Shown: positions 4,893-34,109 of the stretch, piece by piece | Layout: the number at the start of each line of letters is the position of its first letter | Numbering within the stretch: the stretch's first letter is position 1 | Assembly: GCF_037996645.1 (NCBI RefSeq) | Contig: NZ_JBBMXV010000007.1 | Location: 94,973 to 158,972, forward strand | From: Halalkalicoccus tibetensis | GTDB taxonomy: Archaea; Halobacteriota; Halobacteria; Halobacteriales; Halalkalicoccaceae | Length of the DNA stretch: 64,000 nucleotides | Direction: 5' to 3' | The notes under the pieces: generated by a model | What the model saw: only the letters and a program-made list of their open reading frames with translations | What the model was told of the DNA's origin: nothing | Database searches by the model: none | Program-made: the position numbers and the translations under genes

Positions 4893-5449
4893 AACTCGCT
4901 CACGTATTCACCCCAATTAGATAACTATTATTGATGATTTGAGAGTATAATATGTATGACTATAATCCCCCTTGTGTAACCCACCCAACAGTCAGACAGT
5001 CTGTTGGACAAGACACAGACTCGATTACTAGGGACTGAACTTCTCCTCCTCGACTGCAAGCCCAGTTATCTGAACCTCCGTGTTCGCTATCTTTCCACTA
5101 ATCACTGCATGTCTATAGCTGTTCGATGAGATCTGGACATTGATTACGAATAGCGGGATTGTAACCTACGTACAGGTCTATCGGAAGAGTATCTTACTTT
5201 TATTGTCGCTGGTTTACCCTCGTGAGTTCATAGACCTTGGCAGTGGAACGGGCGGGTCGGACCAATAGAAGGGCGTTCATACGCTGTATGAAAGCGAGTA
5301 CTCCACCAATATTGGCGAGTCCCGCGTGCCGCAGTTTGTGTGTAAGGATTCCTCTCCTCATAGCTATCAACAGAGTGTTCTCCTCACTACCGAATCAACC
5401 CGAACGGCTTCGGGCATACCTTTATTCCACGCCCACACCGACCGTCCCG
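4893..5449. other. Intergenic region between the aldolase gene and the norB fragment
   Basis: About 560 nt with no convincing gene. The left part (4915-4960) is AT-rich and fits the promoter of the leftward aldolase gene. Base composition rises sharply at about 5410, where the norB fragment begins. Short frames here show no recognisable motif. Confidence 0.5.
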
Positions 5450-6860: not shown

Positions 6861-7010
6861 ATGAAGGAGTGTAAGCGGTGTGGAAAAGCGTTCCTGACAG
6901 ATCGGGCGGCGAACGGACACCAGGCGGTCTGTCCCGAGAATCCCGACCGTGTCGTCCCTGACGGCTGGGCGCCCGAGACACATGGTCGTTGGGGAGATAC
7001 TACAGAGTGA
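6861..7010 (+). CDS. 49-residue C2H2-like zinc-finger miniprotein, copy 1
   Basis: A 49-residue protein with CKRCGKAFLTDRAANGHQAVC: two Cys (C4, C7), then His and Cys at the spacing of a single zinc finger, followed by DGWAPETHGRWG. The upstream frame is longer, but the ATG at 6861 matches the start of the second copy at 19818 and follows the same upstream bases. It ends 29 nt before the end of a convergent DUF6788 gene. The two-gene block recurs at 19.8 kb. A DNA- or protein-binding role is likely; nothing more specific is supported. Confidence 0.75.
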   Translation: MKECKRCGKAFLTDRAANGHQAVCPENPDRVVPDGWAPETHGRWGDTTE

Positions 7011-7038
7011 ACGTATGGGCTGACCAAAGGAGATAGTG

Positions 7039-7389
7039 TCAGTCAGTGTCACTGCCGGTTGCTTTTCCTAGATATTTCCGCCGAACAGTGTCTCCATCAC
7101 GATAGGCCCGATATTTATAGGGGCCATGTTCCCCGCCGCCACTCATGCACGAGCAGCTCTCATCACCACAGGTGCGATACTCGAGATAGACCGCACCACC
7201 TGATTCGTTCTCGAGAAGTTGGGTTTCATCCGGCAGTTCGTCTTCGGTGACTGGCTCTTGGCGACGTTCTTCGCGAGCCGCAAGCAGCTTATCGATATAT
7301 TCGCTGGCGTCCCGAAGCGACTCGTCATCCTGCTTAGGAAGGCCCTCCGCAAGGTAATTCGGAAGGGAGGGAGGTGCAGTCGGTGGCAT
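7039..7389 (-). CDS. DUF6788 family protein, intact copy
   Basis: A 116-residue protein. The N-terminal half is helical and charged (PKQDDESLRDASEYIDKLLA); the C-terminal half has YLEYRTCGDESCSCMSGGGE followed by HGPYKYRAYRDGDTVRRKYLG, a small Cys-containing domain typical of DUF6788. The start at 7389 lies 5 nt from a 9-bp-arm inverted repeat that covers its promoter, which suggests direct control at that site. Upstream of the promoter lies an ORB-type origin and a divergent orc1/cdc6 gene. A second copy at 20 kb is broken. The family's function is unknown; the location suggests a role tied to replication. Confidence 0.75.
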   Translation of the reverse strand: MPPTAPPSLPNYLAEGLPKQDDESLRDASEYIDKLLAAREERRQEPVTEDELPDETQLLENESGGAVYLEYRTCGDESCSCMSGGGEHGPYKYRAYRDGDTVRRKYLGKATGSDTD

Positions 7390-7394
7390 TTTCC

Positions 7395-7438
7395 TTGTGC
7401 AACGTATAGGGAGAACCGATATAGTATTTGTTGCACAA
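7395..7438. promoter_or_regulatory. Inverted repeat TTGTGCAAC-N26-GTTGCACAA, DUF6788 promoter
   Basis: Perfect 9-bp arms at 7395-7403 and 7430-7438 enclose an AT-rich spacer that can hold the TATA box of the leftward DUF6788 gene (start at 7389). Each arm is itself nearly palindromic (TTG-TG/CA-CAA). The same arms recur at 17911, 20363 and 44663 with 23-24 nt spacers. This is a probable operator for an autoregulator or a replication-linked protein. Confidence 0.75.
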
Positions 7439-7554
7439 GACGCCCGGTAGGTCATCTCTCTCAGAGGTGATTCCGTCCGCCATATGTCAGACACCGTTAT
7501 TTCCACTAATACGATGACAGGAGTAGGGACGCCCAGAACAGGCCATCACTCTCC

Positions 7555-8133
7555 CCCCACTGTTTCCAGTAAACGCGAGATCGAGTGGGGAGGCGTCTGC
7601 TCCTAGCGTGAAGTAACCCCCTAGTTCCCTATCTCTCTAGCCGACTTTTTCGACGCTACGGACCAACTAGTGACTATCCATAATAAAGATTCTCGCTAGA
7701 TAACTACCTTTCCCAGAACCGCTCCTGCTTCTTCTACTCTTTACTGGAAATAGTGGGGTGGGGGTGTTGGTCTTCTTCTCTCCATGCTTCCCCCTCGCCG
7801 TGCGCTGGTTCTTCCGTAGCGCCCAATTACTGGAAACAGTGGGGTGCTCCTTACTTATAAAAGACCCTTTACTGGAAATACTGGAACACGGTGGTTCGAT
7901 TCCTCTCCTCAATTTTCCCAGAGACACTTCCAATTACCAAGAATAATGGTGTCTGGAGTATGCGATCGATCACACTTTACTGGAAACGGTGGGGTAGCTC
8001 GTGAGGGCTAGTAGGGGGTAGTTCGCCATCGACAGACAAGGAACTAGTCTCGATTCCCTAGAGTTTACTGGAAACGGTGGGGTGGTAGTCCGGCTATTCG
8101 AAGTGGTTATACTGGAAATACTGGAAACGATGG
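7555..8133. other. Replication origin 1: array of ORB-type repeats
   Basis: At least seven copies of a repeat with core TTTACTGGAAA-(C/T)-(A/G)GTGGGG occur: one inverted (7555-7573) and direct copies at 7740, 7827, 7868, 7976, 8065 and 8109. The copies at 7868 and 8109 contain a doubled ACTGGAAATACTGGAA core. The GGAAAC...GGGG pattern is that of haloarchaeal origin recognition boxes bound by Orc1/Cdc6. The array lies directly upstream of an orc1/cdc6 gene, the normal arrangement of an archaeal origin. The stretches between repeats are AT-rich enough to serve as unwinding element. Confidence 0.85.
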
Positions 8134-8175
8134 TCGAAACTATTATCATGGTAGGTTGACTCAGTCACTCCTATC

Positions 8176-9417
8176 ATGGGCCCCCGGTTCCAGCCGGACG
8201 ATACTCTCTATAAGCGACGGAACACACTCAAGGTAGAGTACGTTCCTGACGAAATCGTCGGACGGGACAACGAGATCGAGGAGTACGAGGCTGCACTTCA
8301 GCCCGTCATCAACGGGGAGTATCCCGATAACGTCTTCATCTATGGAAAGACTGGCGTCGGGAAAACGGCAGTAACGAACTTCCTGCGCAACGAACTGCTG
8401 GAGTCGGCTGCTCATTTCGACGTGGACATCTCGTTTATAACGCTCAACTGTGACGGCCTGAGCACGAGCTATCAGGCTGCGATCAGCCTCATCAACAAGC
8501 TCCGGGAACCCGAACACTACATCGCTGAGACGGGCCATCCTCAATCCAAAGTCTATCGCCTCCTCTGGAACGAACTCAACAGCCTCTCGGGGACCGTTAT
8601 CATCGTCCTCGACGAGATCGATCACATCACGGACGACACCTTCCTCTATCAGATCACGCGCGCAGACAACAACGGGTACATCGAGAACATCCAACTGGGT
8701 CTCATCGGGATCAGCAACGACTCGACGTTCCGTGAGCAACTCGACGCGAAGGTTCAATCATCGCTCTGTGAAACCGAGATCTCGTTCCCGCCGTATGGCA
8801 CCGAAGAACTCCAAAAAGTCCTCGAACAACGAGCGGACATCGCGTTCCACCAGAACGCGCTTGAGGACGGTGTGATCTCACTGTGTGCTGCACTTGGCCG
8901 TCAAGACGGGGGCGATGCACGACGAGCGATTACACTGCTTCGGAAGGCTGGTGACCTCGCCAGAACGGAAAACGCAACGAGAGTCACGACCGATCACGTC
9001 GAGCGAGCCCAAGAAAAGCTCGAGGCCCAACAGAGCATGGACATCATGCGTGATCTCACCGAACACGAACAGCTTACCCTGTATGCTCTTACGACCCTTG
9101 CCGCCGAGGACGCGACTCCTGCCCGGTCGCGTGTCGTCTACCAGCGATACAAGAAACTCTGTACTACTCAGGACCGTAATCCCCGCACAGCCCGCCGAAT
9201 GCGGAGTTTTCTCTCCGACTTCGAAATCCTCAACCTGACACTCTCCCATATGGAACATCGAGGTCAGGACGGCGGCACGTATCGTGAACACGAAATCAAC
9301 CGGGACATCGCGACGATCATCGACGCGTTGCAGACCGTGATCACGGAGTTCGGTGCTCACCGAAGTATCACGGAGTATCTCCCGGACTCGGGCGAAGAGT
9401 TCGCCACGATAGCGTAG
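8176..9417 (+). CDS. orc1: Orc1/Cdc6 replication initiator 1
   Basis: A 413-residue AAA+ protein. Walker A is GKTGVGKT at residues 57-64, Walker B VLDEID at 144-149, and sensor 1 GISND at 178-182; GGDARRAI near residue 249 carries the sensor 2 Arg. A C-terminal winged-helix domain from about residue 305 binds origin DNA. The protein binds ORB repeats and recruits MCM. Length and motifs are complete. The gene starts 42 nt after the last ORB repeat of origin 1, so it is its probable cognate initiator. It differs strongly from the second initiator at 18.6 kb, in step with the different repeat sequences. Confidence 0.95.
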   Translation: MGPRFQPDDTLYKRRNTLKVEYVPDEIVGRDNEIEEYEAALQPVINGEYPDNVFIYGKTGVGKTAVTNFLRNELLESAAHFDVDISFITLNCDGLSTSYQAAISLINKLREPEHYIAETGHPQSKVYRLLWNELNSLSGTVIIVLDEIDHITDDTFLYQITRADNNGYIENIQLGLIGISNDSTFREQLDAKVQSSLCETEISFPPYGTEELQKVLEQRADIAFHQNALEDGVISLCAALGRQDGGDARRAITLLRKAGDLARTENATRVTTDHVERAQEKLEAQQSMDIMRDLTEHEQLTLYALTTLAAEDATPARSRVVYQRYKKLCTTQDRNPRTARRMRSFLSDFEILNLTLSHMEHRGQDGGTYREHEINRDIATIIDALQTVITEFGAHRSITEYLPDSGEEFATIA

Positions 9418-9590
9418 CTGTCCGTGCTCATCTCCTCGTCTCCTCTACTTACCTAGAAGTAGCGTCAAAGAGACGCGACAGTTTCGGTCAAGATTGTTGC
9501 CGTTATCTGCAGAACTGCAGCTAGTCTTCGAAGCATGGATCTCTGAGTGCGTATCTTCAGCGTCGTGATCCCTCCTACTGATTAGAACGT

Positions 9591-11096
9591 TTAGAACGTG
9601 ATCTGGGATTTGGTTTCGGCTTGGAGCGCCCAGATTTCCTTCATCCGGGCTCGAATACCTACGTACTGCTCGTGGAGACGATCATACGTCTCACCACGAG
9701 CAGCAGTCGGGTGATACCGATCGGCATTTGAACGGACCTGTTTGACTCCTGCTGGCGCGTTCGAGTAGCAGCCAGCACCGACCCCGGCGAGTACCGCCGC
9801 TCCAAGCGCGGTCGGCTCAGCACTGTCCGGGATGACGATTTCGACGCCCATACAGTCGGCAACGAGCTGATTCCAGAACGCAGATTGCGTTGGTCCGCCA
9901 GTGAGATAGAGCTGAGAGACCGTATTTGGGACCGCTTCGTAACAGTCCCGAAGCGCCAAGGCAAGCCCCTCGTACACTGCTCGAACGATGTGGGCAGTTG
10001 TATGCGACGGTTCCAAACCCAGTAGCTGTGCTCGTGCATTGGGATCAACGAAGGGGCCTCGTTCGCCAGTCGAGCTGAGATACGGCAGATAAACAAGCCC
10101 GTCTGCTCCGGCTGAAACCGAGCGAGCAGCGGCCTCGAGATCCGAATAGTCGGTCTTACAATTGTTTACAATCTCATCGCGCACCCACTCGATGCTCCGG
10201 GTGCCTACATTCGATCCGATTGCTTCCGTATAGAGACCGTCCCAGAGGGCAACTTGGATCGTCGTCGAATCGACACGTGGTGTCGAAGCTAGCGACTGGT
10301 TGACGACCGACGTCCCGACCGAAGACACCGAATCTCCCTCGGAGACGGCGCCACAACCGATGGCGGACGCGGCAACGTCGAACAGTCCCATCACGACCGG
10401 CGTCCCAGCGGGTAGACCAGTCTCCACTGTCGCCGATTCAGTTATTGATCCAACGACCGAGCCTGCGGTCTGTAGCTCCGGGCGCAGGTGCTTGTGCTCG
10501 GACACTCCCGTGGCCTTCCAGACGGCATCCGAATACGATTGACTGTGAATATCCAAGAGGGGCAGCGAACCGTCGCTCAAGTCCGTCGCCCGCTCTCCGG
10601 TCAGCTTGTAGGTAAGCCAGTCTTTGCAGAACAGAAGCGTCGCCGCCGTCTCAAGCTGTTGAGGGCGTTCATCGGACAGCCATGCGAGAAGCGGAAGGAC
10701 GGTGCCAGGAAAGAGCTCCGAGCCACAGATAGAAGCGATCTCTTCGAGCGTGCCGTTGGTGCGCCACTGCTCGACGTACTCGTTTGCCCGACTGTCCGAC
10801 CAAAGAATAGCGCTGCGAACGGGCTCGCCGTCCCCATCGATCAACCAACATCCATCGCCTTGGCCTGCGATACTGACGCCGAGAACAGTGGCTTCCGGTG
10901 GAAGCTGCTCAACGAGCTCCGCGAGACAGGCAGCGGTCTGTTCCCAGACGGTATTCATGTCTTGATGAGCCCACTGTGAACGTGGATGGTCCGTCGTGAG
11001 CTCTCGGGTAGCCAGTGCCTGCTCACGTCCAGTCGGCGTGATGGCGATTGCCTTGATCACTGACGTGCCGGCATCGATACCCACGAGAATGTCCAT
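9591..11096 (-). CDS. FGGY-family carbohydrate kinase
   Basis: A 501-residue two-domain kinase of the actin/hexokinase fold. The N-terminal VGIDAGTSVIKAIA is the first phosphate loop; GQGDGCWLIDGDGEPVRSAI and LWSDSRAN carry substrate-binding residues; the C-terminal YLTGGPTQSAFWNQLVADCM is the FGGY adenosine motif. The GQGDGCW variant resembles erythritol and L-xylulose/3-keto-L-gulonate kinases more than glycerol kinase, but the exact sugar cannot be named. It phosphorylates a sugar or polyol with ATP in the cytoplasm. The gene stands alone, convergent with orc1, with no transporter nearby. Confidence 0.88.
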   Translation of the reverse strand: MDILVGIDAGTSVIKAIAITPTGREQALATRELTTDHPRSQWAHQDMNTVWEQTAACLAELVEQLPPEATVLGVSIAGQGDGCWLIDGDGEPVRSAILWSDSRANEYVEQWRTNGTLEEIASICGSELFPGTVLPLLAWLSDERPQQLETAATLLFCKDWLTYKLTGERATDLSDGSLPLLDIHSQSYSDAVWKATGVSEHKHLRPELQTAGSVVGSITESATVETGLPAGTPVVMGLFDVAASAIGCGAVSEGDSVSSVGTSVVNQSLASTPRVDSTTIQVALWDGLYTEAIGSNVGTRSIEWVRDEIVNNCKTDYSDLEAAARSVSAGADGLVYLPYLSSTGERGPFVDPNARAQLLGLEPSHTTAHIVRAVYEGLALALRDCYEAVPNTVSQLYLTGGPTQSAFWNQLVADCMGVEIVIPDSAEPTALGAAVLAGVGAGCYSNAPAGVKQVRSNADRYHPTAARGETYDRLHEQYVGIRARMKEIWALQAETKSQITF

Positions 11097-11329
11097 TGCC
11101 CAGTACGCCGTTGTCAGTCGAGTTAGTGGTTATGATAGGAAGTTATCATGAGACAGAAGGCCCTATCGAAACCAACGATCGTAGTAGGGAACTTCTTGCT
11201 GAGCAAGACGTACCGATGACATAGATCGCCCTTGCAGGGCCTCTCTGTAGTGTCTAGGTGGCCTGGCCCCTAGTCACCGGCTACGTCGAGGATGCCGTCG
11301 AAATTATTGCAGGGTTCAGACGAGTGCGA

Positions 11330-12664
11330 TTAGTCCAAAACTGCAGCTAGGGTATCGAGATAACCACCTCTCCCATAGTACTTGTTTTCGTATTCAGAGG
11401 GAGTTTCTGCGGTACGACGAAGTACGTTCATGACCTGGTTTGCATTGGAACGCTGACTAATACTGGCGACAAGTGCAACGGCACCGGCAACTTGTGGTGC
11501 AGCCATCGAGGTTCCAGCTAACCACCCATACCCATACTCCGCTCCCTGATACTCCCCATCATCGCTAAATATGGGCGTAGCAGTCACGTTCAGGACATCA
11601 TCGTATTCAGACTCTCCACCCTGTCCGCCAGGCGCAGCGAGATCGATTGCACCGACTCCGTGTGTCGTATACGTTGATGGCGCGTACGGTGGTTCATCGT
11701 ACTCGCCGGTACCAGGATCGAATCCGATAGGACCGGTTGCGCTCGTCGTGATTCCACCTGCAGTTTGAGACGAGTCGGTTTCATCCCGGTTGAACTGGAG
11801 ACTCTCTCCCCAGTTCCCAGAAGCGTGCGTATGAACCGTCCCGTTTCGCCGGGCGTAGTTTCCGATACGCTGGTGAACACTGCCCCAGAATCTACCCCAC
11901 CCCTCCTCGCGCATGTTCCACGTCCAACCAAGACTGAGATTCGCGGCATCACAGCCGATCTCAGCAGCGTAAACGAGGGCAGCCAAAACTGACCCATAGT
12001 ACGTATCTCCCCAGTAATCCGGCGGAAGGTCGTTGCGATCACTACTCGCCGGATTCGCGGTAGAGACACGAAGATCCACGAGCTCCGTACCGGGCGCAGA
12101 GCCGACAACACCGGTCTCATCCTCGTCATTGGCAGCAACGATTCCTGCCACGTGCGTCCCGTGGGTCCCTGCATAGGGCTCCCCGATTCCGTAGTCGTCC
12201 TCTGCGAAACTCCTCGAGAGATCGAGATTGACCTGGCCTTCCAGATCAGGATGACCCGATGCAATCCCGCTATCGATGATCGCTACTCGCGTTCCTTCAC
12301 CGCGAGTCGTCTCGTGAGCGTCCGGAATACCTTGGTCGTGTTTGTCCCACTGATATGCAGATAGGTCCTCGCTCTCCTGGAGATCATCAGCTCTGGTTTG
12401 GCGGACTGGGCGATGATCGCCGCGGCTGTGTCGTCTATCTGGCACGAAGTCCGCCCGGGATGCTTCGAGTGAGTCCTCAGATCCCTCGACAATGAGCAGA
12501 TCCACGGGCTGCATTTCGTGGATTATTTCGACGTCTTCACGGCCCTGAAAACCTCGACTATCAACGATAAATCGCTGGATCGGACTGGCTGTAGCGATTG
12601 AGGGGCCGAGAGTAAGTGCCCCGAGTGATACGCTGCCTGTTTTGATGAATGCGCGTCGTTTCAT
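11330..12664 (-). CDS. Subtilisin-like serine protease (S8, halolysin type) with Tat signal
   Basis: A 444-residue secreted protease. The leader MKRRAFIKTGSVSLGALTLG is a twin-arginine signal. An inhibitor-like pro-region follows to about residue 120. The triad is visible: D131 in VAIIDSGI, H168 in HGTHVAGI, and S386 in GTSMAAPQ; N284 in ASGNWG is the oxyanion residue. It is likely folded in the cytoplasm and exported to act outside the cell, as in other halolysins. There is no C-terminal extension domain, so it is shorter than halolysins R4 or 172P1. It has its own AT-rich promoter at 12720-12770. Confidence 0.93.
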   Translation of the reverse strand: MKRRAFIKTGSVSLGALTLGPSIATASPIQRFIVDSRGFQGREDVEIIHEMQPVDLLIVEGSEDSLEASRADFVPDRRHSRGDHRPVRQTRADDLQESEDLSAYQWDKHDQGIPDAHETTRGEGTRVAIIDSGIASGHPDLEGQVNLDLSRSFAEDDYGIGEPYAGTHGTHVAGIVAANDEDETGVVGSAPGTELVDLRVSTANPASSDRNDLPPDYWGDTYYGSVLAALVYAAEIGCDAANLSLGWTWNMREEGWGRFWGSVHQRIGNYARRNGTVHTHASGNWGESLQFNRDETDSSQTAGGITTSATGPIGFDPGTGEYDEPPYAPSTYTTHGVGAIDLAAPGGQGGESEYDDVLNVTATPIFSDDGEYQGAEYGYGWLAGTSMAAPQVAGAVALVASISQRSNANQVMNVLRRTAETPSEYENKYYGRGGYLDTLAAVLD

Positions 12665-12997
12665 GATGTGTGAGAAGAAACGGGGCCGGCTCTGCCCGCG
12701 TTGGATTTCCTCTCAAGAAATAACATGGGCTGGTTAAATAATAATTTATTTTAACCACGATTACACTAATACGGGCACGTACTTCTTCGGCATCGATTCC
12801 AACCTATCCACCAATTCGAATCCTATTATTGGTGATGGGTTGACAGCACGTAGCCACGATAACGAAGCAGGATATACAATAGTACGGAATTCTCATAGAG
12901 CACGTTCAATCTAACAAATATCGACAGAGGGTGGCCTGAGTCGTGACCTCGACCGGAATCCAACGGGTATATACAAACCACCAGTCTGGTGTGGGGT
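12665..12997. promoter_or_regulatory. Divergent promoter region between subtilase and BASS genes
   Basis: About 330 nt between divergent genes. An AT-rich block at about 12731-12760 (TAAATAATAATTTATTTTAA) can serve as TATA element for the leftward protease. No gene or repeat was seen in the rest. Confidence 0.45.
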
Positions 12998-13984
12998 ATG
13001 TCGACAGGAGGCGGGCTCCAGCGGATCAGCCGATTCATCAGCAAATACTTCGTCGTGTGGGTTCTGGCCGCTGCCGCTCTTGCCCTCCTCACGCCCGAGA
13101 CGTTCGCCTGGATCGGCGACTATATCTCGATTCTCCTCGGGGTCGTCATGCTCGGAATGGGGCTGACGCTCACTCCGGCGGATTTTCGACGTATCATCGA
13201 ACGGCCACGGGACGTCGCGATCGGCTCCTGTGCACAGTGGGTGATCATGCCCACGCTAGCATACGGTCTCGTCGTTGGCCTCGGACTCCCGACGGAAGTC
13301 GGAATCGGCCTGATTCTGTTGGGTGCGGCCCCGGGTGGGACGGCCTCGAACGTCATGACCTATCTCGGAAAAGGGGACGTCGCCCTCTCGGTAACGATCA
13401 CGTCTGTGACGACGATCGCAGCGCCGATCGTCATGCCTGCCTGGGTCGTCCTTCTGGCCGGCGAGCAGATCCAGGTGACGTTCGCCGAGATGTTCCAGGA
13501 GATCGTCCTGATCGTACTCATTCCCGTCGTCGCGGGCGTGGTGATCCGGCAAGTCCTGGATCGAACCGCGCCCACCGCAGCGGAAGTCGGTCTCACCGTC
13601 TTTCCGGCGATCAGCGTGCTCGCGATCGTCACGATCGTCGCTGCGATCGTCGGTCTCAACGTCGAGAACATCCTCGCCGCAAGCGGCGTCGCCCTCGTGG
13701 CTGTACTGGTTCACAATGCAGTGGGACTGGGCGCGGGCTACGGAGTCGGACACACCACGAGCATGCCGGAGGATCGAGCGCGGGCGTGTGCGTTCGAAGT
13801 CGGGATGCAAAACAGCGGGCTGGCCGTTGCCATCGCTGTCGCCTTCTTCAGTCCCCTGACGGCGCTCGTCCCGGCTCTGGCAAGTGTCTGGCACAACGTG
13901 ACGGGGCCTGCGCTCGCGACGTATTTCACCCGCCAAACGGACGAACACTCCGCGTCGGCGCCGAGTATCCACGAGTCCGACTGA
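12998..13984 (+). CDS. Bile acid:sodium symporter (BASS) family transporter
   Basis: A 328-residue polytopic protein with about nine or ten hydrophobic segments. LLGAAPGGTASNVMTYLGKGD (near residue 103) and CAFEVGMQNSGLAVAIAVAF (near residue 265) are the two sodium-binding crossover motifs of BASS carriers. Such carriers import organic anions with sodium. The ATG at 12998 is preferred to the GTG 9 nt earlier. A GlcD-type 2-hydroxyacid oxidase follows 94 nt downstream on the same strand, which suggests uptake of glycolate, lactate or a related acid. Substrate assignment is inference from that neighbour. Confidence 0.9.
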   Translation: MSTGGGLQRISRFISKYFVVWVLAAAALALLTPETFAWIGDYISILLGVVMLGMGLTLTPADFRRIIERPRDVAIGSCAQWVIMPTLAYGLVVGLGLPTEVGIGLILLGAAPGGTASNVMTYLGKGDVALSVTITSVTTIAAPIVMPAWVVLLAGEQIQVTFAEMFQEIVLIVLIPVVAGVVIRQVLDRTAPTAAEVGLTVFPAISVLAIVTIVAAIVGLNVENILAASGVALVAVLVHNAVGLGAGYGVGHTTSMPEDRARACAFEVGMQNSGLAVAIAVAFFSPLTALVPALASVWHNVTGPALATYFTRQTDEHSASAPSIHESD

Positions 13985-14078
13985 CGAGGTGTCGATACCA
14001 GGATCGACACCCTCCTCCCGGATGGACGGATGCAAACGCCTATCAGCTAGTCACCCACCACCAGATACCACACAGACG

Positions 14079-15470
14079 ATGGGACACGATCACGACTACG
14101 ACTGTTCGTTCGTTACCGACGTCGTTACTGAGGGCCGCGTTAGCACCGCCGAGGACGTTCTGGACGCCCACGCGAAAGACGAGGGACCTCACGAGGCCCA
14201 CCGACCCGACGTCGTCGTCTGGCCCGACTCCACACGGGAGATCGCGGCGCTGTTGGCCGAAGCGAACGACCGTACCGTACCCGTAACGCCATGGAGCGGG
14301 GGAACCAGCATCGAAGGCAATCCGATCCCCGTCGCCGGTGGGATCGTCCTCAACACCTCCGAGTTCGACGAGATCACTGTTCGCCACGACGATCTGCAAG
14401 CCGTCGTCGGTCCGGGCGTCGTTTATGATGATCTGAACGCGGCCCTCGCGTCCCATAACCTTCGGTTCGCACCGGGAATCGCTGCAGGCGATATCGCGAC
14501 GATCGGCGGCATGATCGCGAACAACGCCAGCGGTCTCAATGCCGTCCGATACGGCGTAACCGGCGACCACGTCCTACGCTTGGAGGTCGTACTCCCTGAT
14601 GGACGGATCATCGAATGCGGTCGCGACGTCCCGAAAAGCACGGCCGGCTACAACCTCAAGGACCTCTTCGTCGGCAGTGAAGGAACGCTCGGCGTGATCA
14701 CCGAGGCGACGCTCTCTCTGGAGGGAATCGCCCAGCACAGACACGCTGCGCTCGTAACGTTTCCCTCGAGTGTGGCTGCCAGTCAGGCCGTCTCGACGAT
14801 AATGGCATCAGGTTTGACACCAGGTGCACTCGAGTTCATGGATACACAGCTCGTCGAACTGCTCAACGACTACAACGATGACGCCGACTTTCCAGCTGCA
14901 CCGCTCTTGTTGATCGAACTCCACGGCAACAGCGGCGATCTCAGCACACAGATGGATCGCGTTCGGACGATCTGTGAGGACCATGACGCCATCGAGTGGT
15001 CGGAAGCCGATACTGACGACATCGAGACGATCTGGCGTGCACGCCGAGACGCGTATCCGGCAGCCTGTGAGTACTACGCGGATCAGACCGTCGGAGTCAT
15101 CGGCGACGTCGTCGTTCCGATTTCGAGATATCCCGACATCGTGAGCCGGATCGAAACGATCAGCGACGAGCTCGAACTACTGACGCCGTGTGTCGGGCAC
15201 GCTGGCGACGGAAACATCCACTTTCTGCCGGTGGTCGACACGGACGACCCGGCGGCCATGGATCGCGTACAGGAGCTGACTGACGCGATCGTAAGCGAAG
15301 CACTCGAACTCGGCGGGACCGCTACGGGCGAACACGGGATCGGAATCGGGAAACGAAAGTTCATGCGCCAGGAACACGGCGACGCCGTCGACGTCATGAG
15401 CGGTATCAAGGACGCGATCGATCCGAGGGGAATCATGAATCCCGGCAAGACGCTCCCCAACGACGATTGA
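14079..15470 (+). CDS. FAD-linked 2-hydroxyacid oxidase/dehydrogenase (GlcD / D-lactate dehydrogenase type)
   Basis: A 463-residue flavoprotein. The PCMH-type FAD domain shows PWSGGTSIEGN (near residue 68) and GGMIANNASGLNAVRYG. The C-terminal FAD-oxidase domain has GHAGDGNIHFLPV with the active-site His and ends in TGEHGIGIGKRKFM, typical of D-lactate and glycolate dehydrogenases. It oxidises a 2-hydroxyacid to the 2-oxoacid and passes electrons to a carrier. The start at 14079 (MGHDHDYD) is chosen because the longer upstream frame has no family similarity. It is likely co-transcribed with the BASS transporter. Confidence 0.9.
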   Translation: MGHDHDYDCSFVTDVVTEGRVSTAEDVLDAHAKDEGPHEAHRPDVVVWPDSTREIAALLAEANDRTVPVTPWSGGTSIEGNPIPVAGGIVLNTSEFDEITVRHDDLQAVVGPGVVYDDLNAALASHNLRFAPGIAAGDIATIGGMIANNASGLNAVRYGVTGDHVLRLEVVLPDGRIIECGRDVPKSTAGYNLKDLFVGSEGTLGVITEATLSLEGIAQHRHAALVTFPSSVAASQAVSTIMASGLTPGALEFMDTQLVELLNDYNDDADFPAAPLLLIELHGNSGDLSTQMDRVRTICEDHDAIEWSEADTDDIETIWRARRDAYPAACEYYADQTVGVIGDVVVPISRYPDIVSRIETISDELELLTPCVGHAGDGNIHFLPVVDTDDPAAMDRVQELTDAIVSEALELGGTATGEHGIGIGKRKFMRQEHGDAVDVMSGIKDAIDPRGIMNPGKTLPNDD

Positions 15471-15761
15471 GGTCCGATCAAGCACGACAGGCTGAGCTAC
15501 CGTAGTCCCGTTCGATCAGCCTGGTATTCCAGTAGTACCGTAGGAAGTTTCTTGGTAATAGCTAGCAAGTGGCCCCTAAATGCCAGATAATACCGCGCAT
15601 ATAGGAACGCGATTCAGACACACATCATCGTACGCTAATGAGATGAACGTTTGTTATGGCCCTCTTGTTGACCTACTGTTATATAATCGACAGTACATCC
15701 GCTGAATATTAGATAGAATACTATTCACTTAGTATATGTTTTAACCATCAAAATTGTTTAC

Positions 15762-17543
15762 ATGGATTCAGGCGGTACAACACGGCGCATGTCACACAGA
15801 CGCACGTTTCTGAAACAGCTCGGACTGGCAACGGCAGCAACGACGGCAGTTGGGACAGGTGCCGGAGCGGCCACCGGTACGAGCACGACTGATGAGGGAC
15901 TCAACATCGAGGGCGGTAGCGGCTCGGAGTTCGACTACCCATGGCAGTTCATTGGACGGCGTTCGGCCGTCATGGCCCAAAACGGCATGGTCGCAACGAG
16001 CCATCCTCTTGCTGCCCAGGTCGGAATTCAGACCCTCCAAAACGGCGGTAATGCCGCTGACGCTGCCGTCTCAACGGCAGCGATGCTCAATTTCGTCGAA
16101 CCACATATGACCTCGATCGCGGGGGATATGTTCGCGCTAACCCACTTCGATGGGGAGTTCAAAGCGTTGAACGGCAGTGGTCGTGCACCTGCCGCCGCGG
16201 ATATCGATACCTACTGTGAGCGTATCGACGAAAGCGAAGACGGCGAACCAACGATCCCAGCGGAGGGGGGCCTTCCCGTTACGATTCCAGGCGCTGTCGA
16301 TGGCTTTCATCAACTCATCGACCGATATGGTACCCAGGAACTCGCCGACGTGTTCCAACCGACCATCGAGTACGCCCGTCAAGGCGTACCGGTCACTGAG
16401 TACGTTGCAGCACAGTGGGAAGAGGCCGCACCGCGGGTCGAAGGATTCGATTCGTTCGCCGAGACCTTCCTGCCTGATGGGCGACCCCCACAGCCGGAAG
16501 AGGTGTTTTCGAACCCCGCGTTTGCCGATTCGCTCGAACGGATCGCCGAAGACGGAATCGAGACGTTCTACGGCGGCGATCTCGGACAAGAAATCGTCGA
16601 GATCGTCCAAGAGCACGACGGAGTGATGGAACTTTCCGATCTGGAAAACCACGAGAGTACGTGGGGAGACCCGATTTCCACCGAGTATCGTGGTGTGGAG
16701 GTACTCGAGCATCCACCGAACACACAGGGTGTCGTTGCTTTACAGGCACTCAACCTCCTCGAGAACTTCGACGTTAGTGACGACCCGACCGACCCTGAAC
16801 GTCTCCATCGGATGATCGAGGCGGTGAAAATCGCCTTTGCTGATGCCTACGAGTTCGTCACTGATCCAGAGGCCGAACAGATCCCGATAGAGACGATGCT
16901 CTCGAAGGAGTATGCGAACGATCGCGTAAGCGAAATCGGGTCCTCGGTAGGAGAGTACGAACCACGGGCCGACAGACAGAGTGATACCGTCTATCTCACC
17001 GTCGTGGATGGAGATGGTAACGCCGTTTCGTTGATCAACAGCGGCTACTACCCGTTCGCAAGCGGGCTCGTCGTCGGTGGGTTCGCCCTGCAGAACCGCG
17101 GCTTCTCGTTTAGCCTCGATCCTGACGATGCGAACGCACTCGAACCGGGGAAACGACCCTTCCATACACTCGTTCCAGCGATGCTTGCCGAAGACGGCGA
17201 GTTCCGTGGGTCCTTCGGCGTGATGGGGGGCGACATGCAACCCCAAGGCCACGCCCAAGTCGTCATGAACATGGTCGACTCCGGCTTGAATCCACAGGCA
17301 GCGATCGATGCGCCTCGATTCCGGTTTATGGGAGACCACGAGGTGACGCTTGAAACCTCACGACTTCCCGAAGGGACGGTCGACGACTTGCGGGAACGCG
17401 GCCATGACGTGATCACCGAAGAAGAGTACTTCGTCCCTGATGCAGGCCATTACGGGGGTGCACAGCTCATCTATCGCACTGAAGATGGGAAACTGATCGG
17501 TGGCTCGGAGCCTCGGCGGGACGGTCACGCAGTCGGGTTCTGA
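15762..17543 (+). CDS. Gamma-glutamyltransferase with Tat signal
   Basis: A 593-residue Ntn-hydrolase. A twin-arginine leader (MSHRRTFLKQLGLATAATT) suggests export; ATG 15789 would start directly at it, 27 nt inside the listed start. VATSHPLAAQVGIQTLQNGG begins the large subunit. The autocatalytic cleavage site is DTVYLTVVD, with T409 aligned to the catalytic Thr of E. coli GGT. GGDMQPQGHAQVVMN is the conserved C-terminal segment. The enzyme removes gamma-glutamyl groups from glutathione-like or gamma-glutamylcysteine substrates. The gene is preceded by a strongly AT-rich promoter stretch (15650-15760) and stands alone. Confidence 0.92.
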   Translation: MDSGGTTRRMSHRRTFLKQLGLATAATTAVGTGAGAATGTSTTDEGLNIEGGSGSEFDYPWQFIGRRSAVMAQNGMVATSHPLAAQVGIQTLQNGGNAADAAVSTAAMLNFVEPHMTSIAGDMFALTHFDGEFKALNGSGRAPAAADIDTYCERIDESEDGEPTIPAEGGLPVTIPGAVDGFHQLIDRYGTQELADVFQPTIEYARQGVPVTEYVAAQWEEAAPRVEGFDSFAETFLPDGRPPQPEEVFSNPAFADSLERIAEDGIETFYGGDLGQEIVEIVQEHDGVMELSDLENHESTWGDPISTEYRGVEVLEHPPNTQGVVALQALNLLENFDVSDDPTDPERLHRMIEAVKIAFADAYEFVTDPEAEQIPIETMLSKEYANDRVSEIGSSVGEYEPRADRQSDTVYLTVVDGDGNAVSLINSGYYPFASGLVVGGFALQNRGFSFSLDPDDANALEPGKRPFHTLVPAMLAEDGEFRGSFGVMGGDMQPQGHAQVVMNMVDSGLNPQAAIDAPRFRFMGDHEVTLETSRLPEGTVDDLRERGHDVITEEEYFVPDAGHYGGAQLIYRTEDGKLIGGSEPRRDGHAVGF

Positions 17544-17910
17544 CCTACTACCGATCCGCCGGAACTCACCATACATCACTAGGCTGATCGACGGACGTGA
17601 ATCGCGTATGCTCCGCTCCGTAACCATCATCGGTGGCTGGCTGAATATCCAGCTCCACCCCGAATAGTCAACAAGTGCAAATAGTGACATAGACGATATA
17701 TGACGAACGTGATCGTTACCCGGACCCACGTTGCGTTCCTACGCAACCCGTAATAGGTCCGCGACGATCTCAATGTAGGATTCACCGCCTCAAGCTCTGA
17801 AATGTCGCTCGGTGGACCATCAGACACATTTGGGACGGCACGGGGATAAGTCCTGAAGAAGAGCATTTGAGGCGTATCTCAAAGGGGTAGACAGTAGGTG
17901 GCATACTACC
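17544..17910. other. Intergenic region left of origin 2, with a DUF6788 start remnant
   Basis: About 370 nt without an intact gene. On the minus strand, 17893-17904 reads ATG-CCA-CCT-ACT (MPPT), identical to the first codons of the intact DUF6788 gene, after which similarity ends. This places a DUF6788 start at the same position relative to the origin as in module 1. The rest shows only short frames without motifs. Confidence 0.45.
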
Positions 17911-17952
17911 TTGTGCAACAACTGGCTCTTTCCGACCAATATTGTTGCACAA
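17911..17952. promoter_or_regulatory. Inverted repeat TTGTGCAACAA-N20-TTGTTGCACAA beside origin 2
   Basis: Perfect 11-bp arms, 42 bp in total. It sits 6 nt from the DUF6788 start remnant and 37 nt before the first ORB repeat of origin 2, as its homologue at 7395 sits before origin 1. The sequence is nearly the same as at 20363. The repeat is retained here although the gene it once controlled is gone, so it may have a role of its own. Confidence 0.75.
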
Positions 17953-17989
17953 GGTTGACGAAAACAGCTCAGCTTCTCTTGTAGGGGAG

Positions 17990-18550
17990 CCCCGGATTGC
18001 CGCTGTAAGATCTCAATAAGACCCGTCCCGTTTCTGGACCAGCACCCCTCGTTGCCGCTGTAAACAGATAGGTAGTGGTCGGATACTCCCACCCCGGATT
18101 GCCGCTGTAAAACTCTCTGATGTATCCGGTGGGAGGTCAGAACAGGAAGTATAGAGAGAAGCGTTTTCTATAGAATACATCTATCTGGCGACTATTAGCA
18201 ATACATTTATTAGGTAAGGTGTCGTTCGCTACCGTACTGCACTTTTGCCATACTGAGACGGCAATCGCTTTTGCCGTCGAAGAATCGAAAAGGAGGCTCA
18301 CCTCTCCCACTAGCTGAGGGCTGTATATGGGGTCTTACCATGTCAGTCCGTCTGTTGTCCTTCTGTTCTGGTGGCGGTCCCTTCCGAATCTTTACAGCGG
18401 CAATCCGGGGTGGGTGTGTCCAGGTGTTTACAGCGGCAACGAGGGGTCCTAACCAGTGGAATTGGTATCAACCCGTTCTATATCTCTCGTGAGTAGTGTT
18501 TTTACTGTACTCTCTAATTCGTGAACTCTCTTACAGCGGCATTGTGGTGG
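17990..18550. other. Replication origin 2: inverted and direct ORB-type repeats
   Basis: Six copies of a repeat with core TTTACAGCGGCAA-(TCC or CGA)-GGGG occur. Three are inverted on the left (17990-18008, 18044-18064, 18090-18111) and three direct on the right (18391-18412, 18427-18447, 18530-18550, the last degenerate). They enclose an AT-rich core (about 18165-18225, e.g. ATACATTTATTAGG) suited to unwinding. The order of the variants is mirrored: CCGGGG and CGAGGGG types occur on both sides. This is a classic archaeal origin layout. The second orc1/cdc6 gene follows at once. Confidence 0.88.
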
Positions 18551-18587
18551 GCAAAGGTTCATAACCCATCCCTGAGAGAAACCCCCT

Positions 18588-19784
18588 ATGAGCGAATCAA
18601 CGTCATTCTTCGGTAATCCCGATCCGATTTTCGCCGACAAAGAGCTTCTCCGCGTTAGCCACCTCCCCGAAGGTGATCGAATCATCGGACGGGACGACGA
18701 ACTCCGAAGCCTCGCCAAAGCGATCAAGGACGCACAGCGAGGCGGAACACCGAACAACGTTTTGATCTACGGAAAAACTGGAACCGGCAAGAGTCTTTGT
18801 TCGAAATACATCACGCGTGATCTTGCCGACGCTGCCGCCGAAAACGGCGTGAGAATCGGTATCGCGTACGTTGATTGTTTCCAAGAGTCGACCGAAACAC
18901 AGACAGTTCGAACTATCGCTGAATCGCTCAACGACCCGGAAGAAACGGACATAACTGTCCCCCACTCCGGAGTAAGCACGTCTGACTACTACCGGCGCCT
19001 GTGGGACATACTTGATGCCCGCCTGGACGTCGGCATTATCATTCTCGACGAAATCGACAAACTTGAGGACGACAACGTTCTGATGCAGCTCTCACGTGCA
19101 GCGGAAGCAGGCAAAGTCGATGACTCTACGCTCGGTATCATCGGGATTAGCAACAAGATTCGCTACAAAGACACACTGAACGAGCGCGTGAAATCGAGCC
19201 TTTCAGAGCGTGATTTCGTTTTCCCTCCATACGATGCATCCCAACTCCAGGCGATTCTTCAGTCACGTGCGGATGCGTTTCGCGAGAACGTCCTTGAGGG
19301 GGACGTAATCCCAAAGGTGGCCGCGCTCGCTGCTCGCGAACACGGTGACGCCCGCAAGGCAATCGATATTCTTCGGTATGCAGGTGAAATTGCTGACGAA
19401 CACGGTGATGATTCTGTCCGTATCAAGTACGTCGATGAAGCGCATGACCGTGAGGAACAGGCTCGACTCTCGGAACTGATTTCGAAACAGCCGACACATT
19501 CAAAATATCTGATGCTGGCTCTTGCTCTTCGAATGCAGGAATCTTCTGAGGACGAACCACCGATCCCTACGAAGCAGATTCACTCTGCCTATCAGATCGT
19601 CTGTGAGCGCGAAGGAACTGAACCGCTGAAGATGCGTCGAGTTCGTGACCTCCTCTCCGAACTCGCATTTCTCTCGCTCATCGAGCAGGAACGCAAAGGA
19701 CGCGGGAAAGGAAAGGGCGCTCATACCGTCAATGAACTCGTTGACGATCCCGAGATCGTCGTTGAAGCGTGTCAATCCGCTTGA
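18588..19784 (+). CDS. orc1: Orc1/Cdc6 replication initiator 2
   Basis: A 398-residue AAA+ initiator. Walker A is GKTGTGKS at residues 62-69, Walker B ILDEID at 152-157, sensor 1 GISNK, sensor 2 in EHGDARKAIDIL; a C-terminal winged helix follows from about residue 295 (SKYLMLALALRMQ onward). All core motifs are intact. It begins 37 nt after the last repeat of origin 2, which it probably recognises. Similarity to initiator 1 is limited to the AAA+ core, so the two belong to different Orc1/Cdc6 lineages. A C2H2-like miniprotein gene follows 33 nt downstream and may be co-transcribed. Confidence 0.95.
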   Translation: MSESTSFFGNPDPIFADKELLRVSHLPEGDRIIGRDDELRSLAKAIKDAQRGGTPNNVLIYGKTGTGKSLCSKYITRDLADAAAENGVRIGIAYVDCFQESTETQTVRTIAESLNDPEETDITVPHSGVSTSDYYRRLWDILDARLDVGIIILDEIDKLEDDNVLMQLSRAAEAGKVDDSTLGIIGISNKIRYKDTLNERVKSSLSERDFVFPPYDASQLQAILQSRADAFRENVLEGDVIPKVAALAAREHGDARKAIDILRYAGEIADEHGDDSVRIKYVDEAHDREEQARLSELISKQPTHSKYLMLALALRMQESSEDEPPIPTKQIHSAYQIVCEREGTEPLKMRRVRDLLSELAFLSLIEQERKGRGKGKGAHTVNELVDDPEIVVEACQSA

Positions 19785-19817
19785 AATGGATGGGCTTCAA
19801 CTATCAGCGGATTCCAT

Positions 19818-19967
19818 ATGACGGAGTGTGAACGGTGTGGGAAAGCATTCCTGACAGATCGGGCGGCGAACGGACACCAGGCGGTCTGTCCCATGAATTC
19901 GGATCGTGTCATTCCTGACGACTGGGCGCCCGAAGCGCACGGTCGCTGGGGGAACAATACGAAGTAG
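19818..19967 (+). CDS. 49-residue C2H2-like zinc-finger miniprotein, copy 2
   Basis: Closely similar to the miniprotein at 6861, with the same length and the finger CERCGKAFLTDRAANGHQAV, then DDWAPEAHGRWG. At DNA level long runs are identical between the copies. It starts 33 nt after orc1/cdc6-2 on the same strand and is convergent with the broken DUF6788 copy. Substitutions are mostly conservative, so it looks functional. Confidence 0.75.
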   Translation: MTECERCGKAFLTDRAANGHQAVCPMNSDRVIPDDWAPEAHGRWGNNTK

Positions 19968-19987
19968 ATTCCGTAGGCAATGTCAAC

Positions 19988-20356
19988 TCACCAATTGGTG
20001 ATAGCCGAGTCAGTCCGTATCACTGCCGGATGCTTTGCCGAGATCCTCTCGCCGCACGGTGTCTCCGTCGCGATAGGCCCGATATTTGTAGGGCCATGTT
20101 TCTCGCCGCTCATACACGAGCAGCTCTCATCACCGCACGTTCGATATTCGAGATACACAGCACCATCTGATTCGTTCTCAAGCACCTAGGCATCCCCGGG
20201 GAGCTCGTCTTCGGTGACTGGCTCACTTTGACGCTGTTCACGAGTGGTAAGCAACTCGTCCACGTACTCTTGGACCTTCCGCAGGGTTTCGTCGTCCTGT
20301 TTGGGAAGCCCGTCGGCAAGGTAGTTCGGAAGCGATGACGGTGCAGTCGGGGACAT
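19988..20356 (-). pseudogene. DUF6788 family gene, copy 2, with stop and frameshift
   Basis: The start (MSPTAPSSLPNYLADGLPKQ) matches the intact copy at 7039-7389. The codon that is CAG (Gln) in the intact copy is TAG here, at about 20186-20188, after ELPGDA. The frame then continues as LENESDGAVYLEYRTCGDES, but after MSGEKHG the reading frame shifts and the HGPYKYRAYRDGD segment is lost. The gene is therefore inactive, while its upstream inverted repeat is fully preserved. Confidence 0.85.
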
Positions 20357-20362
20357 TCTACC

Positions 20363-20404
20363 TTGTGCAACAATGAGCGCCCTTTTATTAATATTGTTGC
20401 ACAA
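20363..20404. promoter_or_regulatory. Inverted repeat TTGTGCAACAA-N20-TTGTTGCACAA upstream of DUF6788 copy 2
   Basis: Perfect 11-bp arms, total 42 bp. The spacer holds TTTTATTAATA, which on the minus strand supplies a TATA box about 25-35 nt before the ATG at 20356, so the arms flank the promoter core. The divergent SMC-related gene starts 187 nt to the right and might also be affected. Confidence 0.75.
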
Positions 20405-20590
20405 GGAGTCCAGAGTAGTCGCTATCCCCTGGAGGGGAACGAAACGTACATCCGAAGTGTCACCAAGCGAGGGCGAGCAAAGCGGCGTACGTAGATGGTG
20501 TCTCCTATTCAAAACGGAGTTCAGTTGAATTCGCTGGAAAACGGGCATCTGAACCCTTATTGAAGACTAGCCCAAAAGAAGGACTATACG

Positions 20591-34099: not shown

Positions 34100-34109
34100 C
34101 GCCCATTAC

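Follow-up and report, generated by a model that had tools for sequence, protein, structure and literature searches.

The window, a stretch of 64 kb from Halalkalicoccus tibetensis, contains two genes for Orc1/Cdc6 proteins, both of them on the + strand and both matching the Pfam families Cdc6_lid and Cdc6_C, viz. orc1/cdc6 at 8176..9417 and a second orc1/cdc6 (orc2) at 18588..19784. An ORB-like repeat array lies ahead of each of them, of the TTTACTGGAAACGGTGGGGT family in the first case (7555..8135) and of the ACCCCGGATTGCCGCTGTAAA family in the second (17990..18550). To the left of the first array is an intact gene on the - strand (7039..7389) for a protein of 116 aa, our candidate site-binding autoregulator, which belongs to the Pfam family DUF6788 (PF20586; E 7e-8, 33 bits vs. 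a gathering cut-off of 27.2) and also matches PHROG 22659 (E 6e-16). Convergent with it is a gene for a C2H2/C2HC miniprotein (6861..7010, + strand; sub-threshold PF13913). The predicted order of a DUF6788 start, an inverted repeat, an ORB-like array and a rightward orc1/cdc6 was confirmed at both 7.4 and 17.9 kb, as was a third copy of the block after orc2, where a second copy of the miniprotein (19818..19967, + strand) begins 33 nt past the orc2 stop codon and is followed by a DUF6788 pseudogene (19988..20356, - strand) with an in-frame stop and a shifted frame.

All four positions that had been given for the inverted repeat are exact matches, the core pair TTGTGCAAC/GTTGCACAA being present at 7395/7430, 17911/17944, 20363/20396, and 44663/44695. 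The conserved arms are 11–12 bp in length (CCTTGTGCAACA) and thus longer than this core pair, and the full site is a two-armed palindrome of the form CCTTGTGCAAC-N17..27-GTTGCACAAGG. The first of these sites (7393..7440) is located at the DUF6788 promoter, with a TATA-like box between its 11–12 bp arms, and it adjoins the first ORB-like array and orc1. The second (17909..17954), which adjoins the second array and orc2, has on its left only an MPPT... remnant, which is all that survives of DUF6788 at this locus; the repeat, as predicted, persists where the gene has been lost. The third (20361..20406) lies between the DUF6788 pseudogene and a gene for an SMC-like ATPase (20591..22507, + strand; SMC_N below cut-off) that is recurrently found opposite DUF6788 across the site. 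The fourth (44661..44705) is isolated, the nearest called genes being 0.8–1.0 kb and a tyrosine recombinase gene (46377..47576, - strand) about 1.7 kb away, and a degenerate fifth site with 3 mismatches is present at 4970..5013. At the DUF6788 starts in the window, the TATA-like sequence AATATTAATA is inside the spacer and the near arm is 3–5 bp ahead of the ATG.

Distribution and conservation of the sites

The source genome contains 39 exact sites, compared to 0 matches for a reversed control pattern, and a de novo scan for inverted repeats across 2.46 Mb of plasmid sequence gave 112 copies of the site word, the next unrelated word having at most 4. The repeat is far beyond chance. All 39 sites belong to plasmid-like contigs, the four large contigs of this genome being free of them, and in H. 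jeotgali, whose plasmids are named replicons, 25 of the 26 exact sites are on plasmids. The survey of plasmid sites, which covered four species and 2.46 Mb of sequence (the replicons of H. paucihalophilus (P) being incomplete), yielded 167 sites, 163 of which are intergenic. When regular spacing was sought in this set, the CV of the gaps was near 1, i.e. random, and no promoter bias was observed, the orientation of the flanking genes being that of the intergenic background; a promoter regulon was dropped from consideration for this reason. In Halalkalicoccus, most of the sites lie between tandem or convergent genes, as often as the length of this intergenic DNA would lead one to expect, and they occur at a density of about 1 per 15 kb over whole plasmids, with up to about 25 on a single plasmid. 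Several gene families retain a site 16–154 bp past the stop codon, and many Halalkalicoccus sites have no evident tie to maintenance genes. Wherever homologous DNA spans a site, the site is retained (159/159 cases), and the identity in these homologues is 98.4% for the arms, 72.3% for the spacer and 79.1% for the flanks. As judged from these alignments, the arms are under strong purifying selection.

The original prediction viewed the module as a replication-control cassette, in which both small proteins act at an operator next to the origins. The operator-like repeat and its enrichment near orc genes are upheld by our results: for 14 of the 23 orc genes a site is found at most 1 kb away, compared to 15% of random genes, and DUF6788 is present within 3 kb of 13/23 (comparison level, 3.6%). 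Confinement of the cassette to origins is not upheld, as 152 of the 167 sites are away from any DUF6788 promoter and are scattered across whole plasmids, and most sites are far from any orc gene. The joint role for the C2H2 protein also did not hold: it accompanies DUF6788 in the source genome only (6 of 10 copies), no copy of it comes closer than 3.9 kb to DUF6788 in the three other Halalkalicoccus genomes examined, and it is a local passenger.

DUF6788 promoters, arm types, and viruses

The repeat was predicted to serve DUF6788 as a dedicated operator, and the promoter layout agrees with this, with one arm directly next to the start codon and the TATA box enclosed by the two arms. A fixed spacing of 4–6 bp between gene and 5' site is seen in no gene family other than DUF6788, where the site is present in 12 of 13 cases; no repeat was visible at the DUF6788 relative M3:188081. 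The TATA-flanking repeat is also found, with three types of arms, in all 12 further plasmid DUF6788 genes, one of which is from Halalkalicoccus sp. CGA53 and the others from different genera. DUF6788 genes with the same layout and other arms are present in five viruses, and two arm types beyond the three from plasmids are contributed by viral sequences and one paralogue, making five types in all across plasmids of several genera and five viruses. The arm type follows the DUF6788 subfamily and not the host (Mantel r 0.737, 0/5000). The two DUF6788 paralogues on plasmid 1 of H. jeotgali differ in their arms, and the odd one shares its arm core with that of virus ChaoS9; the divergent J2 paralogue has no Pfam DUF6788 match and was assigned by its N-terminal motif, alignment and locus only. 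Saliphagus and G256 have the same arms as Halalkalicoccus, and DUF6788 is 66–73% identical in Saliphagus and 70% in CGA53 (G256 appears to be the same as CGA53, since their site spacer is identical). Matches of the type A pattern in bacteria and viral contigs, most of them without the CC..GG extension and many of them full hairpins, were taken as unrelated.

The viruses phiH1 and phiCh1 contain three sites each: one at the promoter of DUF6788, one ahead of parA, and one next to repH. Transcript T8 of phiH1 has its annotated start within the near arm. Sites upstream of parA are also present in virus L354 and at the second H. jeotgali locus, the distance in the three viruses being 50–120 bp; none was seen upstream of parA in ChaoS9. 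The parA gene is within about 2.6 kb of DUF6788 in phiH1, phiCh1, L354, ChaoS9 and the J2 second locus, and this linkage is looser in the Halalkalicoccus type A loci. A search of viral contigs with a single DUF6788 sequence gave no match, and a search of them with another arm type led to two viruses. The L-region of phiH1 and phiCh1, which replicates as a plasmid, holds the DUF6788 genes PhiH1_250 and PhiCh1_230 with the three sites of each virus. This region is described as encoding RepR, ParA, and RepH (PMC6210493). In the papers examined, PhiH1_250 is listed as an uncharacterized protein, and a term search of them did not find the two-armed repeats (PMC6210493).

A first fold of DUF6788 from four sequences was poor, and the second was usable (AlphaFold pLDDT 80 for the best of five models and 55–62 for the rest). 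No confident fold match was obtained for the model with Foldseek and VIA-align; the arm-binding domain of a P4-like integrase appeared at Z 3.3 among unrelated matches and is not counted as evidence. A PDB profile search gave weak, scattered matches only, and the Pfam search found DUF6788 alone, with no ParB match.

Possible role of DUF6788 and other explanations

The interpretation that we favor, with a probability of about 0.6, is that DUF6788 is a sequence-specific DNA-binding autoregulator that serves the maintenance of plasmids and proviruses together with ParA and Orc/RepH. It would recognize the two-armed palindrome, with arms of roughly NYTT-R-NNN-AACA that are 17–27 bp apart. The sequences strongly suggest such binding, and the layout expected of an autoregulated gene was found, its promoter carrying a conserved palindrome that varies in step with the protein. 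Since the TATA box is between the two arms and the start site is covered by them, DUF6788 would repress its own promoter. Since the same sites occur upstream of parA and beside rep/orc genes, the maintenance of the replicon would be a joint task of DUF6788, ParA and Orc/RepH. The most probable part of DUF6788 in it would be that of a partition-type (centromere-binding) or plasmid-organizing factor, whose sites in Halalkalicoccus would have multiplied over whole plasmids. A partition-type role is moderately indicated: as in ParABS systems, a ParA-type ATPase gene is linked to that of the candidate site-binding protein, and the replicon has repeated, putatively centromere-like sites, some of them at the par promoter. 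However, a small gene downstream of parA in its operon (J2 399168, phiCh1 ORF47) is already a possible classical partner, and DUF6788 therefore need not be the centromere-binding protein. The co-variation of arms and protein could also come from another factor of the same lineage that binds the site.

Two known systems invite comparison. KorB of RK2/RA3, a ParB-type protein, is autoregulated and has many near-identical palindromic operators dispersed over the plasmid, including those of its own gene and of partition/replication genes. The DUF6788 sites are similarly numerous, near-identical and placed; in contrast to KorB, DUF6788 lacks a ParB match in Pfam, and its site is two-armed with a long variable spacer and occurs up to about 25 times on a plasmid. 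The phage-plasmid N15 has dispersed centromere sites for SopB, a small number of inverted repeats close to its genes for replication, regulation, and partition. The candidate partition sites of phiH1 and phiCh1 are arranged in a similar way; SopB is unrelated to DUF6788.

A different and rather unlikely, though still appreciable, possibility is that DUF6788 is a KorA-like regulator of transcription or copy number, acting on orc, parA and itself without any partition role, and that the additional sites serve as decoys or insulate locally. The sites at the DUF6788 promoter and upstream of viral parA, and the orc linkage, fit such a global regulator. However, the tandem or convergent setting of most Halalkalicoccus sites, away from promoters, and those retained past stop codons are not accounted for, and decoys should not show such strong purifying selection. 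It is very improbable that the site is bound by another plasmid protein, such as the SMC-like ATPase or the product of the small gene after parA, with DUF6788 merely its regulatory target. Four copies of the DUF6788 site do have the SMC-like gene on the opposite side; however, in the loci examined DUF6788 alone is always adjacent to the site, the regions examined of phiH1, phiCh1 and ChaoS9 contain no annotated SMC gene, and the arm types go with the DUF6788 subfamilies even where a single plasmid has two paralogues.

The sites could also be crossover points at which a tyrosine recombinase shuffles plasmid modules, as in pdif (Xer-dif) modules and integron attC, which likewise consist of short paired arms repeated over plasmids. 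This reading was strong at first: BLAST homology ends cluster at site edges far above random intergenic points, and a 399-aa tyrosine recombinase family, to which the gene in the window belongs, occurs in each of the six Halalkalicoccus genomes that have sites and is found beside parA and orc in several. However, for homologies of at least 85% identity the excess vanishes (16 ends at sites vs. 12.4 expected), as it does at 90% or more (3 vs. 3.8), which indicates that the ends are those of conserved blocks within diverged DNA. The insertions surveyed between two sites were mostly diverged cases, and no recent exchanges bounded by the site were found. Further, the variable spacer of 17–27 bp is too long for a tyrosine-recombinase core and departs from the Xer/pdif layout of two 11-bp arms and a 6–8 bp core. 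The plasmid recombinase was also rejected as the cognate enzyme, its best match in Saliphagus and G256 being only 40–42% identical, compared to the 66–73% (Saliphagus) and 70% (CGA53) of DUF6788, despite the shared arms. We therefore rejected module shuffling and consider it most improbable. A functionless spread of mobile palindromic repeats (REP/MITE-like) is scarcely credible, for although the copies are many and intergenic with variable spacers, invariant arms with spacers unrelated between most copies are the opposite of copy-and-paste, and the unfailing retention and the one precise position at DUF6788 promoters across genera also speak against it.

To our knowledge, the upkeep and sorting of haloarchaeal megaplasmids are poorly understood, as are those of proviruses that resemble plasmids, among them phiH1 and phiCh1. 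We tentatively suggest, with somewhat more doubt than confidence, that haloarchaeal plasmids and plasmid-like viruses may share a hitherto unrecognized maintenance system, in which the small, probably Zn-binding DUF6788 would mark extrachromosomal DNA at dispersed two-armed sites, as a distributed centromere or a plasmid-specific chromatin, with lineage-specific site codes giving replicon identity and incompatibility. A function is thus proposed for an unannotated family, and a specific protein with its likely binding sites can be named for plasmid and provirus maintenance in haloarchaea. The comparison of the five arm types predicts specificity residues of DUF6788, and the sites in the model viruses open binding, promoter repression, and provirus stability to direct test. 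In Halalkalicoccus assemblies, the palindrome also provides a sequence marker to distinguish plasmid from chromosomal DNA.

The repeat and its distribution over replicons

The original prediction placed an inverted repeat with arms of 9-11 bp at positions 7395, 17911, 20363 and 44663 of the window. The repeat was found at exactly these positions, but its arms are 11-12 bp in length (CCTTGTGCAACA), and a degenerate fifth copy is present at 4970-5013. The proposed order of a DUF6788 start, the repeat, an ORB-like array and a rightward orc1/cdc6 gene was also observed at two places. The additional block after orc2 is present as described, but the DUF6788 gene within it is a pseudogene, and the window thus contains a single intact gene of this family.

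An exact-pattern search of the source genome identified 39 copies of this site, all on contigs C5, C6, C7 (the window's contig), C13, C14, and C15; the large contigs C1-C4 (four contigs of 572-926 kb) had none, and a reversed control pattern gave 0 matches. Contigs C14 and C15 are each exactly 31,359 bp long with mirror-image site positions and are probably one contig present twice in opposite orientation; hence, two of the 39 copies may be assembly duplicates. Based upon their size and GC content (65-67% in their first 20 kb vs. 52-54% on the site-bearing contigs), C1-C4 appear to be chromosomal. In H. jeotgali B3, where the replicons are named, plasmids carry 25 of the 26 exact sites and the chromosome carries one. 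Class-wide, only 7 of 292 genomes contained the pattern, all from the same family; it is also found in Saliphagus. A 44.5 kb contig of the H. jeotgali genome (C5 of G060) is ~100% identical to a part of plasmid 2 (C3) in circularly permuted form, and represents either a cointegrate or an assembly duplication.

Placement of the sites and selection on their arms

To examine the placement of the sites, genes were called in plasmid DNA of four species (2.46 Mb in total), and the calls were checked by eye against the annotation publicly available for H. jeotgali plasmid 1. Among the inverted-repeat words detected de novo, the site word had 112 copies vs. at most 4 for unrelated words. The spacer length ranged from 17 to 27 (mode 24). 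With up to 3 mismatches allowed, 163 of 167 sites were intergenic; the orientation of the genes around them matched the intergenic background, which rules out a promoter regulon. In all of the 159 homologous pairs spanning a site (159/159), the partner retained it, and the identity was 98.4% for the arms, 72.3% for the spacer and 79.1% for the flanks; the arm value is somewhat inflated, as query sites were picked by arm match, whereas the retention count is free of this choice. Each site is thus maintained through selection on its arms.

Homologies between plasmids had their ends at the edges of sites much more frequently than at randomly chosen intergenic positions, which suggested site-specific recombination. 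However, this excess disappeared at identities of at least 85% (16 ends vs. 12.4 expected) and at least 90% (3 vs. 3.8), and this explanation was abandoned for the plasmid sites; the clustering reflects a conserved block within diverged intergenic DNA. The plasmid tyrosine recombinase was likewise rejected as a partner of the sites, as across genera it does not follow the arms.

Several small gene families have a site at a family-specific distance past the stop codon (16-24, 25-35, 52-58, or 152-154 bp), with examples at J2 317826, C6 19143, P12 44039, and C7 64482. An element end, ...CACACCACGGTGTGATCAGTCAGAC, is located 4-8 bp from many sites (J2 242847, J3 250296, P13a 66824, and others), with other copies elsewhere; an insertion sequence with this end may favor the surroundings of sites.

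DUF6788 genes and co-variation with arm type

No gene family other than DUF6788 had the site at its 5' end. Such a site was present in 12 of 13 genes in a family survey and in 18 copies in a survey of site flanks; it precedes the start codon by 4-6 bp in almost every copy and contains a TATA-like AATATTAATA in its spacer. If the protein binds its own operator, a repeat, possibly with different arms, is predicted at the same place in other DUF6788 genes. It was found there in 12/12 plasmid genes examined. The arms were the same as the Halalkalicoccus type (type A) in Halalkalicoccus sp. CGA53, CCTTATGTAACA in Halococcus, Halovenus, Halocatena, Halobacterium, Halorubrum, Haloquadratum, and Salinigranum, and TCTTACCAAACA in Natrinema, Haloterrigena, and Halopenitus, the latter two types in some cases with a mismatch. 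Of 194 genomes, 9 and 11, respectively, contain these two patterns in 1-4 exact copies, often several per contig. H. jeotgali plasmid 1 also encodes a divergent paralogue, with 25-31% identity to the protein of type A and no Pfam match, which adjoins orc and parA and has arms of a further type, TTAACCAAC; DUF6788 genes on virus contigs L354 and L356 have TTACCAAAC arms.

Relatives are also encoded by the viruses phiH1 (PhiH1_250), phiCh1 (PhiCh1_230), and ChaoS9 (ChaoS9_240). In the genome parts examined, phiH1 and phiCh1 each contain three sites with CCTTATCAAACA arms. One is at the promoter of the DUF6788 operon, another precedes parA by 50-120 bp, and the third lies between repH and imm. 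The constitutive phiH1 transcript T8 has its annotated start inside the near arm of the DUF6788-promoter site, and the phiH1 parA transcript T7 starts ~50 bp downstream of the parA site. The L region, which holds these genes and sites, is capable of replicating as a plasmid; plasmid pNMAG03 is the provirus of phiCh1 (PMC6210493). The phiH1 parA-upstream site (34078-34125; 11131-11178 on contig L360), with int2 nearby, ends where the right end of phiH1/phiCh1 inversion 2 is located (nt 34,126; PMC6210493), and recombination at sites in viruses is conceivable. At the ChaoS9 DUF6788 start, TCTTAACCAACA shares its core with the arms of the H. jeotgali plasmid 1 paralogue. Among the proteins compared, that of ChaoS9 is the closest to this paralogue (46%). 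For ChaoS9 parA, no upstream site was seen.

For 21 DUF6788 proteins, protein and arm distances were correlated (Mantel r 0.737, 0/5000 permutations), with mean identities of 59% for same-arm and 40% for different-arm pairs. Two paralogues on one plasmid each follow their own arm type, and one of them has an arm core in common with a virus from a different genus, which argues that the site is set by the protein subfamily and not by the host. The C-terminal strand varies with arm type (YRAYRD, YRYYRE, Y-V-R...WEY, YYYYQWRE) and is a natural candidate for arm specificity. A zinc site is suggested by a C-x4-C-x-C...H group that is conserved but missing from the fifth type.

Two other repeats were met in these searches. 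About 14 viral contigs (L336-L352, about 45-56% GC) share a palindrome near TTTCTTATGTAAC-N-GTTACATAAGAAA, which is a different repeat family, and no DUF6788 gene was detected on them. Actinobacterial MAGs (Jatrophihabitans, Frankiales; L084, L090, L092, L094, L104, L121, and similar) contain many 43-bp hairpins, TTGTGCAAC...GTTGCACAA, with inner stems; these look like REP-type elements unrelated to the haloarchaeal sites.

Linkage to orc genes and a proposed role in replicon maintenance

The expectation that sites lie near orc1/cdc6 genes more often than by chance was borne out: 14 of 23 orc genes have a site within 1 kb, compared with 15.5% of genes picked at random (p about 1e-6, genes taken as independent), and 11 of 23 vs. 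14.4% (p about 1e-4) when DUF6788-promoter sites are omitted. A DUF6788 gene is within 3 kb of 13 of the 23 orc genes (vs. 3.6%), and parA genes are close in some cases. A plasmid survival region made up of a tyrosine recombinase, parA, orc, (an SMC-like gene), and DUF6788 is found repeatedly in several Halalkalicoccus plasmids (M3 72018-79774; J2 64017-70067; C6 1-8699; J3 140795-147363).

Beyond the documented layout, distribution, selection, co-variation, and linkage of the sites, DUF6788 would bind the site arms, repress its own promoter and, together with ParA and Orc/RepH, serve in replicon maintenance. The main rival is that it is purely a copy-number or expression regulator. The spread of the sites over whole plasmids, and the selection on those away from any promoter, fit a partition-type or plasmid-organizing role. 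DUF6788 should be called the ParB of this system only with caution, because another small gene follows parA in both plasmids and viruses.

Autoregulated plasmid DNA-binding proteins with dispersed sites are a kind of system known from bacteria. In the literature searched, which covered sources accessible without subscription, no mention of DUF6788 by name was found, and the locus tag Nmag_4297 was found in no more than two genome papers, which list PhiH1_250 and related proteins as uncharacterized. The protein family, a site code with two arms and the spread of this code across whole archaeal plasmids appear to be new.
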